Shown piece by piece: positions 10,243 to 21,331 of a DNA stretch of 25,215 nucleotides (positions are counted from its first letter, which is position 1; each line of letters starts with the position of its first letter). This stretch comes from a virus. A program made the position numbers and the translations under genes. Where the stretch lies: the IMG/VR virus record IMGVR_UViG_3300037089_000725, positions 1 through 25,215 of that record, one strand, 5' to 3'. The notes below the pieces were generated by a model. It ran no database searches. It saw only the letters and a program-made list of their open reading frames with translations, and had not been told where the DNA came from.

Positions 10243-11502
10243 ATGTCCAACGATTTTCAAAGATCCGAAACCCTCAAGGTAGCCTTGGCGATCGCGAAGG
10301 AAACCGATTTTCTGACCCCGCTTCTTGACGCGGCTATCGGCGTGGTGCTGCCCTTCAATGGGTTCGGCGTCGCGCCCCTGAAGCGCGAGATTGAAGACGA
10401 CAGTAAATTCTTCGGAAAGGGCCACGGCGATCCCACCGAGATCCGCCCGATGGGCGATCAATGGGGCGCCAGCCGCACTTATCGCGCCTCCGACAAATCG
10501 CTGGCGCTGCTCCTGCCGCTCCTGTTGGGGAATGTGGTGACCTACACGCCCACCATAGCCACGACCGCCCGGCGCCATATCGTGAAATTCTGGGATCCCA
10601 TCGGGGGAAGCAACGAGGCGCTCTCCACCTCCTGGATCGAGGCTTACGCCGACACGCAGAAGAAGATCTCCGGCGTCGTCATCAGTCAGGTGCAATTGAA
10701 CGCCGCCAAGAAATACCAGGTCGATCTGGTCACGCAATACTTGGCGCGGCTGGCCGTGGACAACGTCGCGGTGCTCCCGGCGGTTTTTTCAACTGCCAAG
10801 TTTCTGCGGCTCGAAAAAATCGAGCTGGGCACCTTTGCAACCCTCGTCGACGTTTCCAAGAAGGTTACGAACGTCGCGATCACTTTCAACCAGAACCCAC
10901 AGCTCATGTTCACCCCCGGCGCGCCCACCGGTCAGGAGTATTACGCCAATGTCGCCCTGATCGGCTCGCAGACTGCTACGCTCGACCTCACCCTGGCCTA
11001 CGCCAATGCCCTCGCGGATTACACGGTGGACGGGACGGAATTGCGATGCCGCATCACCTTCAAAGGAGCGACGATCGAAACGAATTTCGACGTGGAGATG
11101 ATCGTCGATTTCCCGCGCATGGTAGTCGACAATGACGCCGTGAGCGACAATAATTCCACGCTCAGCCTGGCGTTGAAATTCAGCGAGAAGACCGTCCTGC
11201 GACATGAGACGACCATCGCCTCCGGCACGGCCACGAGCGGCACTACCTCGTCGCTCACGAAAACCGCCGAAACGTTTGTGACCAAGGGCGTCAAGGAAGG
11301 CGCTCTGATCACCATGAACACCGGGGCTGAAGGAGCCCTGGAAACCCGCACCATCATCGAGGACTCGCTCGCCGAGACGACGGTGCATTTCACGCCGGTA
11401 GCCACCAACGCGGTCACCAGCACCACGACTTTTTCCGTCACCCAGGGCTCGAAAGTGGTCGTGACGCTCCAGAACGCCGAGACGGTGTTGCCGCGTCAAT
11501 AA
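10243..11502 (+). CDS. Probable major tail tube protein of a non-contractile tail
   Basis: Start ATG 10243 follows AAGGAG at 10231-10236; the protein has 419 residues. Residues about 90-330 are beta-rich and alternate as in tail tube proteins: TTARRHIVKFWDPIGG, YQVDLVTQYLARLAVDN, EYYANVALIGSQTATLDLTL and FKGATIETNFDVEMIVDFPR. The last 90 residues are Thr/Ser/Val-rich with strands (TVHFTPVATNAVTSTTTFSV) and look like an added Ig-like surface domain, a common decoration of siphophage tube proteins. No FluMu-type sheath gene lies nearby, so this should be the main tail structural protein. A position between tail terminator and the overlapping chaperone frames supports this. Family identity was not recognised outright; the call depends on position and strand pattern. 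Confidence 0.65.
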   Translation: MSNDFQRSETLKVALAIAKETDFLTPLLDAAIGVVLPFNGFGVAPLKREIEDDSKFFGKGHGDPTEIRPMGDQWGASRTYRASDKSLALLLPLLLGNVVTYTPTIATTARRHIVKFWDPIGGSNEALSTSWIEAYADTQKKISGVVISQVQLNAAKKYQVDLVTQYLARLAVDNVAVLPAVFSTAKFLRLEKIELGTFATLVDVSKKVTNVAITFNQNPQLMFTPGAPTGQEYYANVALIGSQTATLDLTLAYANALADYTVDGTELRCRITFKGATIETNFDVEMIVDFPRMVVDNDAVSDNNSTLSLALKFSEKTVLRHETTIASGTATSGTTSSLTKTAETFVTKGVKEGALITMNTGAEGALETRTIIEDSLAETTVHFTPVATNAVTSTTTFSVTQGSKVVVTLQNAETVLPRQ

Positions 11503-11532
11503 AGCCTCGCGAGCCACGCGCCTCCATTACAT

Positions 11533-11559
11533 CCTCCATGGTCAGACATGCCGTGGAGG
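11533..11559 (+). other. Hairpin after the tube gene
   Basis: CCTCCATGG (11533-11541) and CCGTGGAGG (11551-11559) form nine base pairs including one G-U, with a nine-base loop. It lies 30 bases after the stop of the probable tube gene, in a 109-base gap that otherwise shows only the AAAGGAAAA binding site of the next gene. Without a T-run it may act as mRNA stabiliser or weak terminator that sets the high tube to chaperone ratio. Confidence 0.4.
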
Positions 11560-11611
11560 CATGGCGGGTAGAGAAATTTAAACGCACCTTACAAACCCAA
11601 AGGAAAAGCAC

Positions 11612-12415
11612 ATGACCGAAGAAACCAATATACCAGCAAGCAACGTTGTCAGCATCGACTCGACAGGGCCCGCAACCACCCCGGCAGGCCTGTTTGAATG
11701 CCGCCCCGAGGAAGAATATGTGGTGATGATTCCTGAACGTGCGCGAGGATCGATCCGCGTCGTCCACGTCTTTTCGCATATCACCTCCAAAGAATGGATC
11801 GCACTCGATCATAGCAACGTGCTCATCATGCGGCAAATCAGCGACGATTTGAACGAACTCGAAACCGGTGCCTTTGAGCAGGCGATCGCGCTCTATGATC
11901 TGCACATTCAGCGCGTCGAGATCTGGATCCCGAAGGACGCCGGATGGGTCGCCTCAGGTAAGGAAATGCCGGAGGAAAATGTCAGTTCGCTCGAAAAATT
12001 CAAGACCATTAACGCGCTCACGCGAGTCGAAAAAAGCGAATATGCGCGGACCTTCTCTCCTGACAGTTTTCTGGCCTCGGCAGGTTCCTCGGAGATTTGG
12101 CTCCGGGCCATCCAGAATGACCACTGGGTTTTGCTCGGCCACCAATTCCGTAAGCGGACCACCGAGGAGGAAAAACGATTCAAGAGATTGACTTCGCGAA
12201 TTCAGTCGGTCCGCGGTGCGCGCAAAAACACCAGTCGGTTCCCCTCGGATCTGGGCGGCGAAACGGAGCTTTATGACGAGGTTTTCGAGGCCTCGACCGG
12301 CTACATCGACCAAGGTATGCCGATCACCTCGCCTGCGGAAATTCCGCCCTATCACAAAAGGCTGGCGCTTCGGGAACTATTCCAAGGGGATTCGGTGGAC
12401 GCGGGGGAAGAATAA
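11612..12415 (+). CDS. Probable tail assembly chaperone, zero-frame product
   Basis: The 267-residue protein starts at ATG 11612 after AAAGGAAAAG. The first 30 residues look disordered (Pro/Thr/Ser-rich). Residues 30-130 mix strands and helices (EYVVMIPERARGSIRVVHVF, then LNELETGAFEQAIALYDLHI), and the C-terminal part is charged. I recognise no family. The tail chaperone assignment comes from genome order (after the tube gene, upstream of the tape measure) and from the overlapping -1 open frame that runs from 12277 past this stop, the usual G/GT design in long-tailed phages. In that design the short form and a rarer frameshifted long form coat the tape measure during tail assembly. Confidence 0.55.
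   Translation: MTEETNIPASNVVSIDSTGPATTPAGLFECRPEEEYVVMIPERARGSIRVVHVFSHITSKEWIALDHSNVLIMRQISDDLNELETGAFEQAIALYDLHIQRVEIWIPKDAGWVASGKEMPEENVSSLEKFKTINALTRVEKSEYARTFSPDSFLASAGSSEIWLRAIQNDHWVLLGHQFRKRTTEEEKRFKRLTSRIQSVRGARKNTSRFPSDLGGETELYDEVFEASTGYIDQGMPITSPAEIPPYHKRLALRELFQGDSVDAGEE
12403..12409 (+). promoter_or_regulatory. Candidate -1 frameshift site GGGGGAA
   Basis: In the zero frame the sequence reads GCG GGG GAA GAA TAA (12401-12415). A one-base slip backward at G-GGG-GAA keeps Gly pairing in the P site but mispairs one base in the A site, so it is an imperfect slippery heptamer. It sits two codons before the stop, and the -1 frame is open from 12277 to 12873. No other heptamer in the overlap fits the X-XXY-YYZ rule better. 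A slip elsewhere in 12277-12415 cannot be excluded. Confidence 0.4.
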
Positions 12416-12873
12416 CGCTCCGGGAAACGGCTCGGAGCGGTGACGAAGAGGTCCCGGACGAGGAGCGGTATTCATTTCGGGCGGCCATACGGAAATTGCT
12501 TCTGGCATCCGAAAATGCTCGCCGCAATGAGGCCCAGCAGGAAACCCTCCCGGGGCGGGTGAATGTTAAAGACTTCTGCCCCGGGATCGGGCGGTGCATC
12601 GAGACGGCGCTCGATCCGAGCGCCTGTGAGGGATGCAGCGAGCGCCGCTACCAGGTTTATTCGGAGGCGCCAACCGAGCGCTGGAACAATGCGGTTTCGC
12701 TGACGCTGTGGCTCGACGCGAAGTTCATGGCGGGTTGGCGGCCGAGCGATTTAAACGCACTCTCGCCGGAAGAGTGGGAAATGCGCGAGATCTTGGTCAT
12801 CGAACGCAATTGGATGGAACGCCAGGTCATGGATCGAGAACGGCAGAAAATGAAAAAGCCATCTGATTTGTAA
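12406..12873 (+). CDS. Probable frameshift extension of the tail assembly chaperone, Cys-rich
   Basis: This frame has no ATG; the first start-like codons are a TTG at 12496 and a GTG at 12559, both without a ribosome binding site. It is open from 12277 and overlaps the previous gene by 139 bases in the -1 frame, so translation by ribosomal frameshift is the simplest reading. A slip near 12406 would add about 155 residues and give a 420-residue fusion. Within it lies a four-cysteine cluster, FCPGIGRC then DPSACEGC, spaced C-x5-C-x9-C-x2-C, which could bind a metal. The rest is helical and charged with Trp-rich stretches (NNAVSLTLWLDAKFMAGW), ending KMKKPSDL. If the TTG is used instead, the product has 125 residues. 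Confidence 0.55.
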   Translation, partial: GRITLRETARSGDEEVPDEERYSFRAAIRKLLLASENARRNEAQQETLPGRVNVKDFCPGIGRCIETALDPSACEGCSERRYQVYSEAPTERWNNAVSLTLWLDAKFMAGWRPSDLNALSPEEWEMREILVIERNWMERQVMDRERQKMKKPSDL

Positions 12874-12882
12874 AGGGAAAAT

Positions 12883-14397
12883 ATGAGTCTCGACGCAACC
12901 AAGAATTTTGCGAAAGTCACCGTCAGCACGGGCTACGGCTCAGGCGATATATCGATTGTTCTGGCGACAGGCGCGGGCGCAAAATTGCCGCAACCATCAA
13001 CAGATGGCGCATTCAATCTCGTCTGGTGGGATTCGGCCTCTTATGGCGACCCGTCGGATGATCCAAACGTTGAAATTGTGCGGGTGACGGCTCGGACGAC
13101 CGACACCCTGACCGTGATACGCGGACAGGAAGCAACCCCCGCCTCGAACAAGAATACATCCGCCCATACCTACCTCATGATCCTGGGTGCGACCGCGAAG
13201 ATGTTCACCGACATTCAATCGGCATTAGCGAGCGCCGGGGCGATCTCATCGGTCTCGAATACCGACGGGACGTTGACCATCAACCCCACGACGGGCGCCG
13301 TGGTGGCTTCTCTTGCCCTTGGGCATGCGAATACGTGGACAGGGGCGCAGACGTTCGGTGACGCGCTTCTAATCGCCACGACGCCTAAGTTCACGACCGG
13401 GATCAAGGACGCCAACGGAAATATCATCATTGGATTCACGGCGACGGGTTCAGCGGTGGATTACCTTTTGATCGCGAATGCGGCCACGGCCAATCCCTCA
13501 ATGGTTATTTTGAGCGCTGCGGGAGCAAGTACCAACATTAGCCTTCAACTCCTTCCGAAGGGATCGGGGGTCATCTGGCTAGGGCCGACAAGCGACAATA
13601 ATTATTTCGACCGGAACCAATCCAATTATTTGAAGATTTATGGTGGCAATCATGCTTTCATAATAAGCGCCTGGGGTCAAATGGTTCCGCTTCGCATGTT
13701 TTTTGGGCCAGATTTTTATTCTCCATGTATTGAAATGAAAACTTCAACCGCCACTTCTTCCGACAATATTTCAAATCACCTCAGCGTCGTGAGGCACCTC
13801 TACATCGAGGCTCAAAAGGGAGAAACCAGCGATTCCTCAATCGATGATGCGGGTAATATTGGGGTAAATCTCGGGGATGGAAGACCCGCAGCTAGCGGAA
13901 CCAACAATGGTGGCCCAGCCTCCAATTTTGAAATTTTATTTGCTGTGGGGGGAGCAGGTGTCGGTAGTGGGACAAAAGGGACCGATAGTGCTGTTAACTA
14001 TGTAGAGAAGGCTCATGGGGCACGATCAAACTTCCAAGCGGTTTCAATCCTCTTGGCCTCTTCTGCTGGTGGAACGCTCACAGCAACAAACCTGATTCCT
14101 GCGGGCTCCACTGTGCTCAGTTGCACAAGCCGAGTGACTACAGCTTTTGGAACCTCCAATGGCCTGACCTCGATCAGCATCGGGGATGGAACGATAGCAA
14201 ATCTGTTCTCCAACAATTCAGCTATTACTTTGGCTTCTGTGACCAATTCTACGAACTACCTGAGCACGTTTGCGCCGAAATTCTACCCGGCGGCAACCTC
14301 CATTATGATCACCGGCAACGGTGGAACGGGCTTCGATGCAACGGGAGCAATCAGAATCACGCTCTGGTACTTTAACGACAGCCCTCCGACGAGTTAG
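12883..14397 (+). CDS. Tail fibre-like or receptor-binding protein
   Basis: A 504-residue, beta-rich protein. The N-terminal 115 residues (MSLDATKNFAKVTVSTGYG, then GAGAKLPQPSTDGAFNLVWW and DDPNVEIVRVTARTTDTLTV) form the attachment-type domain seen at the start of many fibre-like proteins in metagenomic phages. After a linker with SNTDGTLTINPTTG and WTGAQTFGD, common in fibre shafts, comes a more variable middle (about residues 210-380), then a C-terminal unit with NLIPAGSTVLSCTSRVTTAFG and SISIGDGTIANLF, ending ITLWYFND. The middle is visibly more AT-rich than its flanks, as expected for an exchanged receptor-binding segment. ATG 12883 follows AAAGGGAAA. Function is inferred from composition and order of these segments. 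Confidence 0.65.
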   Translation: MSLDATKNFAKVTVSTGYGSGDISIVLATGAGAKLPQPSTDGAFNLVWWDSASYGDPSDDPNVEIVRVTARTTDTLTVIRGQEATPASNKNTSAHTYLMILGATAKMFTDIQSALASAGAISSVSNTDGTLTINPTTGAVVASLALGHANTWTGAQTFGDALLIATTPKFTTGIKDANGNIIIGFTATGSAVDYLLIANAATANPSMVILSAAGASTNISLQLLPKGSGVIWLGPTSDNNYFDRNQSNYLKIYGGNHAFIISAWGQMVPLRMFFGPDFYSPCIEMKTSTATSSDNISNHLSVVRHLYIEAQKGETSDSSIDDAGNIGVNLGDGRPAASGTNNGGPASNFEILFAVGGAGVGSGTKGTDSAVNYVEKAHGARSNFQAVSILLASSAGGTLTATNLIPAGSTVLSCTSRVTTAFGTSNGLTSISIGDGTIANLFSNNSAITLASVTNSTNYLSTFAPKFYPAATSIMITGNGGTGFDATGAIRITLWYFNDSPPTS

Positions 14398-14414
14398 AGG
14401 AAGGAAGAAAACCG

Positions 14415-14819
14415 ATGTCTCTTCAAATTACGAAAACGCTGGGAACGGGAGCGACCGTCACCTATTGGAAGATCATCGCATATCACTACGATGGCAAGAA
14501 CACCATCGCCAACGTCGCCGGGTGGCTCAGCAAAGACCTCTGCGATGGCGGGGCCGAACCTGCATTGGTGGTGGATTCTATTTTCCCAGTCGAAACTCCC
14601 GCATCACCCGAAGACGGAGGCGTGAAATTGGGAGGAGGCCTGCGATTGGAGGGCGGGGAGCTGGGCGGTGAAGACCTTATGGCCGTCGGACCCGCCGCAT
14701 TCAAACCCTTGCTGACGGCCGACAATGAAGGACAGTCGGCCCTCGATGTGATCATGAATTCGCTTGAGGCTCAGGTTTTGACGGACCCATATTTCGACGG
14801 CGCCATCGCGGTCGAATAG
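14415..14819 (+). CDS. Small structural or accessory protein, unknown
   Basis: The 134-residue protein starts at ATG 14415 after AGGAAGGAAG. The N-terminal 55 residues form alternating strands (TGATVTYWKIIAYHYDGKNT, then VAGWLSKDLCDGG). The middle is a Gly/Glu/Leu low-complexity stretch with repeats of the form LGGGLRLEGGELGGEDL (about 72-88). The C-terminus is helical (GQSALDVIMNSLEAQVL). The first part could be an attachment domain and the Gly-rich part a flexible tether. I do not recognise it. It lies in the fibre-like cassette, 17 bases after the preceding gene. Confidence 0.55.
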   Translation: MSLQITKTLGTGATVTYWKIIAYHYDGKNTIANVAGWLSKDLCDGGAEPALVVDSIFPVETPASPEDGGVKLGGGLRLEGGELGGEDLMAVGPAAFKPLLTADNEGQSALDVIMNSLEAQVLTDPYFDGAIAVE

Positions 14820-17374: not shown

Positions 17375-20300
17375 ATGGGCAATAATAGCACAGTACAAAT
17401 CGTCATCGATGTCAGCGCCGGCCAATCGACCCAGGCGATCGAGGCGGTCCGCGGCTCTCTCGCCAATATGGGCGTTCAGGCCGACGTCTCTTCGAAGCAA
17501 AGTATTGCCGGTAGCGAAGGGATGCTCTCGTCGTTCGGCAGGGTTCGAGATATTCTCGGCGCCATTGGGATCACGATTGGATTGACGCAGTTGGTCAGTT
17601 TTCTCCGAGATTCCGTTTCAATGGCGCTCGAATATGAAAAAGCCTGGGACGAGGTCCGGATCATCACCAATTTGAATGATCAGCAAATCGGTGCGCTGGC
17701 CGCCCAAATTGGCAATCTCAATCCCCTTCTTGGTACCTCTACCCAACTCGCCAAGGGTCTCTTCGACACACTCAAGGCCGGAGTTGAGCCCGCCCAATCG
17801 ATCGATTATGTCACCACGGCCGCAAAGCTTGCCAAAGTGACTTTTAGTGATCTAGGCACCGCCGTCGATATCGTGACCGGCATCCAAAAACAATACAATT
17901 TGCCCGCCTCGGAGGCTGTTCGCATCTCCGACGAGTTGTTCACGGTCTGGAAACAAAGCAAGGGCGACCTGGCCGATTTCGGAGGACGACTGGGTCTCAT
18001 CATCAGCCAGGCTGCCGGGGTCCATATCAGTCTCGAGGATGTTCTCGCCTCTTATTTGGTCTTGAAAGAAAATTTTGGAACCTCGAAGGCGGCCCTTGCG
18101 CCCCTCGGCGAGGTCATCGATTTGATCTCCAATCAGGGCGGAATTCTAACGACCAAAATGCACGCCGTCGGTGTGGAATTCGACACCACGCAATTTCACG
18201 GCAAGGACCTTCAGGAATGTCTGCGCATCCTGGTGGATTATCTTCAGAAAAACGGCATTGGACTCGACCAGGTGGTCGGTTCGGGCAGGAATATGGCCGC
18301 CGTCCTAAAATTGACCACGGATACATCCGGCGAATTGGCTCAGAAATTGGACGATTTGAAAAGTTCAGCCGGCGCGGTCGACGAAAAGTTCGGTCAGTTA
18401 TCCCAAACGGTCGGCGAGCGCGTCACTGCGGCATGGAATTCATTCAAAGACAACATGGCGGCCGTGGGCGTGGCTTTTGTCAAATTCGGCGACGCTGCCT
18501 TGGCCAGCGTCGAGATCCTCGATCATTGGTTCCAAGCCATCGCGGGCAGTCAGATTCCGTTAACACAGGACAGGATCGCCATCCTTGAGTACGCCGCAAC
18601 GCTCAGTGATTCCACCACCGTGACAACCGCTTTGGCTAAGGAAAAAGACAAACTGATCACACTGCTGACCATGGAGGCCCTCAAGAATAAGGAAACCGCC
18701 GACGCGCAGGCCAAATCTAACCTTGAGGTAGATAAAGCGGTGGCATCTGCGGATGCATTCATACTACAGAATGACCAATTAACCCAAGCCGTGATGAAAC
18801 AAAATCCGGCCATTGAACTGGCATATCTCAACTATCAGAATAGCGAAAAGGCGATGAAGGGATGGACGGCGGCCGCCACTGATAATGCGAATGCCCACAA
18901 GACGACCGCGGCGGAAATCGCGAAAGCCGAAGCGGCGCAAAAGAAACTCATTGAGACCACCCAGGCCTACCAGAAAGAGATTCTGGATCTGCAACAGGTC
19001 CAGGCGAAGGCCGAGGCCGACCAAGAGGGCGAGATCGAGAAAATTTGGGCGGCAATTCAGGCGGAAATGCAGAAAGAGGTCCAGACCTCGAATGACCTTG
19101 TCGCTACTCACAAATTCACCGCCGACCAACGCACCAAAATTCAGACGGAATTGATGGCTACTTTGGTTTCTTTGGATCAGGACCGGCAGCACAAAATCGA
19201 GGTCATCCTGGCTAAAGATCTATCGGATTTGGAGGAAAACCGCATCAAGATGCTTGAGGCGTTTTCCAAAACCGCCCAGCAGATGGCCGATGAAGATATT
19301 AAGCAGGTGGAGCGAACGGCTGAGGCCCGCAGCCACGATTTTGCTGGCATCTTGAAAGATTTCAATCAATACGCCGCCGAAGCCGCGGACATTGGAAAAT
19401 CGTCCGCCGATCAACAGATTGCGCAAACGGAGCGCTGGTACCAGGGCGAGATCACTCGATTGGAGGACCTGAAAAAACAATATCCCAAATACGCCTCCCT
19501 GATCAATGCCACCGAAGTGAATGTGGGCCTCGTCCATGACGAGCGGATCCGCAAGGCCAAGGAAGCGGATCTGGGATTCCTGGTATGGTCGGCAGCGCAA
19601 TGGAAAGATTGGTTTGGGGATCTGGTCGCCCGTTCCAACACCTTCGGGGAATTCTTCTCGAATTTCTGGGACGATATGCTCACCATGCTGAAGAAAATCA
19701 TCGCCCGCATGGTGATTGAATGGATCTACGGGCTTTTGGGGATGCAATCGGCCTCGTCGTCGATCAATGTCGCGGGCGGCATCGCCGGATCGGCCAGTGC
19801 GGCTGGGGGTCTATCAGGTTTGCTTAGCGGCGGTCTGTCAGGTTTGCTTTCCGGTCCGGGAGGCTTGTTGGCTGGTTTGGGACTTATTGGCGCCGGGAGC
19901 GCGGTCGGGAGCAGTGGTCCCGGAACTGGGGCCATAAGCGGCGCACTGACCGGGGCGGGAATTACCATTGGGCTGAATTCGCTTTTGACCGCGATCGGCG
20001 TTGGGATCGCCGGTCCCATCGGGATAGCCATTCTGGGCGTTAGCACCTTGATTGGTGCGATTTCGGGGATGTTTACTCGCGGCACCGTTCGGACTGCGGC
20101 GGCCACCTCCGAGCAGGACCTGACGAATCAGGTTGGCGCCGTCCTCGATCAATTTCACGCCGGGAGTATTACGGCCGCCGTGGCGCAATCGCAGGTCGAA
20201 GCGCTTTGGGAGGCCTTCGAGAAGGCCTTTGCCAATGGCAACAAATATCAGCAGGCGGCCATAGCACATGTAGGGCCTCTGATCCAGCAGGTCCTGGCGG

Positions 20301-21331
20301 ACCTCGCTACTGAGGTCACCAAGGCTTCGGCCGCGGATTCGATCAAGAGCCTCCAGGACCAGATGACTACACTCGACGCCGCCTACGATACGACCAAGCA
20401 GCATATCGTGGATTTGAAGACGGAATTTGATTCTAACAACGCCACGTTGAGTTCCGCCACCTATTGGCAGGGCCGATACAATGATTTGATTAAGGATGCC
20501 GCCGATGCGCTCTCCAGTGCCACGGCCACGGTTGAGGGGATTACGGGCGATATTGCTTCTCTCCAACTCCAGATCCAGCGCGATCAATTGCAGGCCGCCA
20601 TCGATAACGCCACAACCGACGATCAGCGGGCGGCCGCCCAAGCCGCCATGGATGCCTTCGAACACCAGCAAACGGTGGACGAGGCGGCGGCTCGCGTCGT
20701 CTTGCTCGCCCAGAAACAGCAGGATTTGATCTTAGCCCAAGCAGCCGAGGCGCAGGCCCAGATCGATTTTGCGGCGGCGCAGGTGCGAGCCGCGGCCGAG
20801 GTCGAGCAAGAAAAGGTGCTGCTCCTGGCGCGCCAGGAAGCGATCATCCAGGAAACGGCGCTCACGTATCAGCAACTCGAAGCTATTGACCAGCAACGAA
20901 TCGCCATATTGGAACTCGTCGCATCGCTTGCGCAAGTTATTGGTGATACCGACCTCATGGCGGCCACCGAGACGCAACTTGCCGATGCGCGGGCCCGGAT
21001 GGATCAGACCATGCTCGATGGGGCGGCCGCCCTGGCGGATATGTTCGCACAACTGCAGGTCCTGGCCACCCAACTCGGTTTGACGCTGACCCTGACCGGG
21101 CCGCCGGAGATCAATCCGGGAGGCACCCCCACGCCCAGCTTTGCGCAGGCGCCCGGCGCAGGAAATAGCGGTACCACGCCGGCGGTGGTGATTAATGTCA
21201 TCGTTCCTGTCACGGCGATTGACTCGCAGGGTGTCGCGGATTTTGTGAACGGCAAAGCATTCCAGAATAGCCTGAGTGCTGCCATTGCGAATAACACGAA
21301 GATTGTTCAAACGCTGAGGAAGAAGCTCTAA
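17375..21331 (+). CDS. Tail tape measure protein
   Basis: At 1318 residues this is the longest gene and sets tail length; at the usual 0.15 nm per residue it predicts a tail near 200 nm. The N-terminal 85 residues contain polar strands, then a hydrophobic helix (DILGAIGITIGLTQLVSFL, about 59-77). Residues 90-400 match the phage minor tail / tape measure core (EKAWDEVRIITNL, FDTLKAGVEPAQSIDYVTT, GFGG-type loop DFGGRLGLIISQAAG). Long Ala/Gln/Lys-rich coiled coils follow (about 480-760 and 980-1230). Between them a Gly-rich hydrophobic stretch at about 795-900 (GLSGLLSGGLSGLLSG, IGIAILGVSTLIGAISGMF) could insert in the host membrane during ejection. No peptidoglycan hydrolase motif was found. 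The start lacks a clear binding site. Confidence 0.9.
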   Translation: MGNNSTVQIVIDVSAGQSTQAIEAVRGSLANMGVQADVSSKQSIAGSEGMLSSFGRVRDILGAIGITIGLTQLVSFLRDSVSMALEYEKAWDEVRIITNLNDQQIGALAAQIGNLNPLLGTSTQLAKGLFDTLKAGVEPAQSIDYVTTAAKLAKVTFSDLGTAVDIVTGIQKQYNLPASEAVRISDELFTVWKQSKGDLADFGGRLGLIISQAAGVHISLEDVLASYLVLKENFGTSKAALAPLGEVIDLISNQGGILTTKMHAVGVEFDTTQFHGKDLQECLRILVDYLQKNGIGLDQVVGSGRNMAAVLKLTTDTSGELAQKLDDLKSSAGAVDEKFGQLSQTVGERVTAAWNSFKDNMAAVGVAFVKFGDAALASVEILDHWFQAIAGSQIPLTQDRIAILEYAATLSDSTTVTTALAKEKDKLITLLTMEALKNKETADAQAKSNLEVDKAVASADAFILQNDQLTQAVMKQNPAIELAYLNYQNSEKAMKGWTAAATDNANAHKTTAAEIAKAEAAQKKLIETTQAYQKEILDLQQVQAKAEADQEGEIEKIWAAIQAEMQKEVQTSNDLVATHKFTADQRTKIQTELMATLVSLDQDRQHKIEVILAKDLSDLEENRIKMLEAFSKTAQQMADEDIKQVERTAEARSHDFAGILKDFNQYAAEAADIGKSSADQQIAQTERWYQGEITRLEDLKKQYPKYASLINATEVNVGLVHDERIRKAKEADLGFLVWSAAQWKDWFGDLVARSNTFGEFFSNFWDDMLTMLKKIIARMVIEWIYGLLGMQSASSSINVAGGIAGSASAAGGLSGLLSGGLSGLLSGPGGLLAGLGLIGAGSAVGSSGPGTGAISGALTGAGITIGLNSLLTAIGVGIAGPIGIAILGVSTLIGAISGMFTRGTVRTAAATSEQDLTNQVGAVLDQFHAGSITAAVAQSQVEALWEAFEKAFANGNKYQQAAIAHVGPLIQQVLADLATEVTKASAADSIKSLQDQMTTLDAAYDTTKQHIVDLKTEFDSNNATLSSATYWQGRYNDLIKDAADALSSATATVEGITGDIASLQLQIQRDQLQAAIDNATTDDQRAAAQAAMDAFEHQQTVDEAAARVVLLAQKQQDLILAQAAEAQAQIDFAAAQVRAAAEVEQEKVLLLARQEAIIQETALTYQQLEAIDQQRIAILELVASLAQVIGDTDLMAATETQLADARARMDQTMLDGAAALADMFAQLQVLATQLGLTLTLTGPPEINPGGTPTPSFAQAPGAGNSGTTPAVVINVIVPVTAIDSQGVADFVNGKAFQNSLSAAIANNTKIVQTLRKKL

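Follow-up and report, generated by a model that had tools for sequence, protein, structure and literature searches.

A probable -1 programmed ribosomal frameshift at GGGGGAA joins two tail-region reading frames of a virus with Mu-like head genes

In the tail region of an uncultured bacterial virus, two reading frames of the same strand overlap in -1 relation, which raises the question whether they are separate genes or are translated as one unit. The window, i.e. the whole stretch of DNA that was analyzed, is the IMG/VR virus fragment IMGVR_UViG_3300037089_000725, positions 1-25,215. It harbors the Mu-like head genes Portal_Mu, Mu F, Gp36 and Gp37 together with a neck gene, and a tail module that includes a PhageMin_Tail tape measure gene at 17375-21331. 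The first of the two frames, ORF1, possesses the Shine-Dalgarno sequence AAAGGAA. The open stretch of the -1 frame extends over 12277-12873 and shares 139 bases with ORF1 ahead of the ORF1 stop; recomputed coordinates of both frames agree exactly with the overlap given by a first-pass annotation of this DNA.

11612-12415, plus strand: ORF1, zero-frame product of 267 aa (30.2 kDa), gpG-like in position, ending with TAA at 12413-12415
12409-12873, plus strand: ORF2, predicted -1 frame extension of 154 aa after the slip, with codon-position substitution bias

Homologues of the frameshift region were searched for in phages, plasmids, genome_contigs and viral_contigs. The searches yielded only L006 and L007, contigs of two other metagenomes with about 90% identity to the window in this part, plus the contig L014. 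The latter (11271-12185) is a distant relative, with 62% identity in TerL and about 28-30% in the putative tube; it breaks off within the putative tube gene, shortly before the frameshift region. Since L006 and L007 do not differ from each other in this region, they represent one comparison, on which conservation rests. Both contain ORF1 and ORF2 in the same -1 relation. The overlap of two frames, and nothing else, would suit a single gene that is decaying or was broken by a frameshift error in sequencing or assembly. However, the occurrence of the same relation in L006 and L007, which stem from other metagenomes, shows that it is not an assembly error, and the ORF1 stop is maintained although its last base differs (TAA in the window, TAG in the relatives). 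In addition, the third-position bias is strong in both ORFs. A broken or decaying gene is largely refuted by the relatives and is very improbable.

The substitutions between the window and the relatives were counted by codon position. ORF1 shows 7, 7 and 35 changes at first, second and third positions, respectively, and the ORF2 frame 2, 0 and 28 over 12559-12870. Directly behind the ORF1 stop (12416-12495) the ORF2 frame shows 3, 1 and 6 changes, four of these ten being located in the loop of a hairpin described below. When this loop is left out, seven of the ten changes in 12416-12558 occur at third positions of the -1 frame. By this pattern, the sequence is coding in the ORF1 frame up to the overlap and is under coding constraint in the -1 frame directly after the ORF1 stop.

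The following elements surround the stop of ORF1:

12384-12390, plus strand: AAGGGGA, a weak internal Shine-Dalgarno-like sequence 5' of the slip site
12403-12409, plus strand: slippery sequence G GGG GAA in ORF1 phase, a five-two motif, unchanged in both relatives
12410-12415, plus strand: 6-nt spacer holding the ORF1 stop, GAATAA (aligned with GAATAG in the relatives)
12416-12439, plus strand: putative stimulatory hairpin with the 9-bp stem CGCTCCGGG/CTCGGAGCG and the loop AAACGG (AAGACA in the relatives)

In the context G GGG GAA GAA TAA, one codon lies between GGGGGAA and the ORF1 stop. Of the XXXYYYZ-type and five-two slip motifs, GGGGGAA alone occurs within the overlap of the two frames, which contains no canonical XXXYYYZ heptamer; such a heptamer is usual, but not obligatory, for -1 sites. 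The first-pass annotation had named GGGGGAA as the best slip candidate and as non-canonical. Both points stand, but the sequence is a documented five-two motif (PMC10885494). PRFect gives it as the only sequence of this motif type and counts about a thousand motifs in SEA-PHAGES data. GGGGGAA recurs as an annotated slip motif in tail-chaperone genes of actinobacteriophages, for which the G-U re-pairing was explained (PMC10885494). The same heptamer has been proposed as the slip site in the tail-assembly genes of corynephage phi16 (PMC5506516).

The strongest element of the signal, not mentioned in the first-pass annotation, is the GC-rich hairpin (-15.5 kcal/mol) that begins 6 nt past the slip site, within the distance of roughly 5-9 nt expected at a -1 site. 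A 36-nt segment containing it folds at -17.1 kcal/mol with a z-score of -3.95 in the window and of -4.26 in the relatives, and none of 200 shuffled sequences was as stable. As z-scores of longer segments of the window are unremarkable (-1.3 and -0.2), the signal consists of one hairpin and not of a large structure. An equally stable hairpin 4-10 nt downstream of a would-be heptamer was present at 0.2% of the positions sampled in the window. GGGGGAA occurs three times in the 25 kb of the window, and the other two sites lack a comparably stable hairpin at this distance. Between the window and the relatives, none of the 18 stem bases but four of the six loop bases are changed (Fisher p 0.0014), and the slip site and the spacer length are unchanged. 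The homologue comparison suggested by the first-pass annotation thus shows the overlap relation and GGGGGAA to be kept, within one close comparison. An H-type pseudoknot has been proposed for phi16 (PMC5506516), whereas the present site has a simple hairpin, for the loop of which no pseudoknot pairing of at least 4 bp was found. AAGGGGA at 12384-12390 might speculatively act as a frameshift enhancer. Transcriptional rather than ribosomal slippage could also join the frames, as a five-G homopolymer lies at the junction. However, five Gs are a short run for polymerase slippage, and the hairpin is positioned at ribosomal spacing, 6 nt past the heptamer, which leaves this explanation with hardly any probability.

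The main rival explanation regards ORF2 as a separately initiated overlapping gene that would be coupled to ORF1 translation and start at the following codon, located by alignment and a start-codon survey:

12379-12381, plus strand: rival start of ORF2, ATT in the window, ATG in both relatives

In L006 and L007 this in-frame ATG would give rise to a 164-aa ORF2 with a 37-nt overlap. The absence of an ATG from the -1 frame, noted in the first-pass annotation, applies to the window, which contains none from 12277 to 12640, but not to the relatives. However, the window has ATT at 12379, and the best Shine-Dalgarno match ahead of the ATG in the relatives is weak (-3.4 kcal/mol, 3-nt spacing) compared to those of the surrounding genes, from putative tube through 246-aa gene (-5.3 to -9.2 kcal/mol). 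A second frame with its own ATG and ribosome binding site would, according to the first-pass annotation, refute the frameshift; such a start is present only in part, as the ATG of the relatives lacks a proper site and the window lacks the ATG. A further ATG of the relatives, at 12487, is ATA in the window. The first NTG codons in the -1 frame of the window are TTG at 12496, CTG at 12502 and GTG at 12559. TTG 12496 was rejected as a start of ORF2 because it corresponds to CTC in the relatives. ATA at 12412 was rejected despite the G-rich stretch ahead of it, since ATA is not known as an accepted start codon in bacteria. The only NTG codons before 12640 that are common to the window and the relatives are CTG 12502 and GTG 12559, both within the constrained region; no usable start codon common to them was found upstream of the constrained coding region. 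Judged from the alignment, translation of the -1 frame must already run close to the ORF1 stop. A separate start would also leave the slip motif and the hairpin with its conserved stem unexplained, and is unlikely.

A -1 programmed ribosomal frameshift joining ORF1 and ORF2, which the first-pass annotation had considered probable, is very likely: overlap, phase, motif, 6-nt spacer, stable stem with diverged loop, kept stop and -1 coding constraint all fit. Counted against it were the G-U re-pairing required in the A site, the deviation of GGGGGAA from XXXYYYZ and the ATG in the overlap of the relatives. Under a programmed frameshift, ORF1 and ORF2 would form a single translational unit, in which most ribosomes terminate at TAA 12413-12415 and release the 267-aa protein. 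The remaining minority would be halted for a time by the 9-bp hairpin and move back by one base on G GGG GAA, whereupon Gly-tRNA would re-pair on GGG and Glu-tRNA on GGA via a G-U pair. These ribosomes would go on at AGA ATA ACG and produce a fusion with a computed size of 420 aa and 48 kDa. We infer the occurrence of slipping at GGGGGAA and its efficiency from sequence.

As a control, both strands of 1.58 Mb of collected loci were scanned for sites where XXXYYYZ or GGGGGAA lies in phase no more than 60 nt from a stop and the -1 frame stays open for at least 80 codons beyond that stop. Slip motif and open frame were combined in 136 candidates, which were ranked by hairpin stability. The first seven were, in this order, RcapMu, the window, L006, L007, L076, L042 and RC1. 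The RcapMu site bears the depositor's annotation 'potential -1 frameshift', and DUF1799 is the -1 product at the sites of RcapMu, RC1, L076, L065, L064, L091 and L055; the -1 product of L042 had no family match. As the annotated RcapMu site and other DUF1799 sites rank high, the scan picks out sites of the chaperone type, with the window ranking in their midst. In L011 (25552-25600), a 10-bp hairpin of -17.5 kcal/mol begins 8 nt past the annotated GGGAAAC of RcapMu, and similar hairpins are located at L076 19797 and L042 10963.

Based on gene order and frameshift architecture, ORF1 and ORF2 probably constitute a tail assembly chaperone pair of the G/G-T type, with the fusion as the putative tube-recruiting form. 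Family searches gave no match for the putative tube gene (10243-11502), which adjoins the pair. ORF1 and ORF2 had no significant match in Pfam, PHROGs, NCBIfam or PDB sequences, and profile comparison revealed no similarity to the RcapMu/RC1 pair, shallow alignments giving both searches little power. Thus, the chaperone role is deduced solely from position and frameshift. AlphaFold models of ORF1 and ORF2 reached a mean pLDDT of about 40 and were left out of fold searches. The first-pass annotation had placed the pair between the tube and tape measure genes. The tape measure is supported by PHROGs and Pfam matches, but no family matches the tube, and the pair and the tape measure gene have at least four genes, several of them structural, between them. 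Intervening genes at this place are known from KL1, HK97 and SPP1 (PMC3483164).

The lambda gpG/gpGT-type tail assembly chaperone frameshift (Xu, Hendrix and Duda 2004, cited in PMC3483164 and PMC3091744) has a similar arrangement: ribosomes shift to the -1 frame shortly before the first ORF ends, the two products share their N-terminus, and the genes precede that of the tape measure. In contrast to lambda, the slip site is GGGGGAA instead of GGGAAAG, the first protein has 267 aa and several genes precede the tape measure; sequence homology to gpG/gpGT was not found. The Mu-like phages RcapMu (gp49/gp50) and RC1 share Mu-type head genes and a long tail, a slip site just ahead of the stop and a downstream hairpin. 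However, their GGGAAAC is directly followed by TGA, their pair with DUF1799 lies directly upstream of the tape measure and its proteins show no detected similarity to ORF1 and ORF2. The frameshift mechanism is ordinary and well known, whereas its sequence background is unusual. The locus adds a well-formed example of GGGGGAA plus hairpin from a phage with Mu-like head genes and tail-region proteins without sequence matches, and RNA architecture can reveal such gene pairs where homology fails.

ORF2 contains a conserved four-cysteine stretch, CPGIGRC...CEGC (window 12575-12640), which could bind metal and is without family match. Tentatively, the pair may belong to a new tail chaperone family in a Mu-like phage, in which the frameshift adds a domain with this possibly metal-binding stretch under the control of GGGGGAA and a simple hairpin. 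Downstream of the pair, a fibre-like 504-aa gene and the following 134-aa gene differ strongly among the window (12883-14819), L006 (10035-12055) and L007 (8726-10647). The genes flanking them are about 82-95% identical among the three contigs. In this comparison, the two genes form a variable region of the tail module that precedes the tape measure gene.
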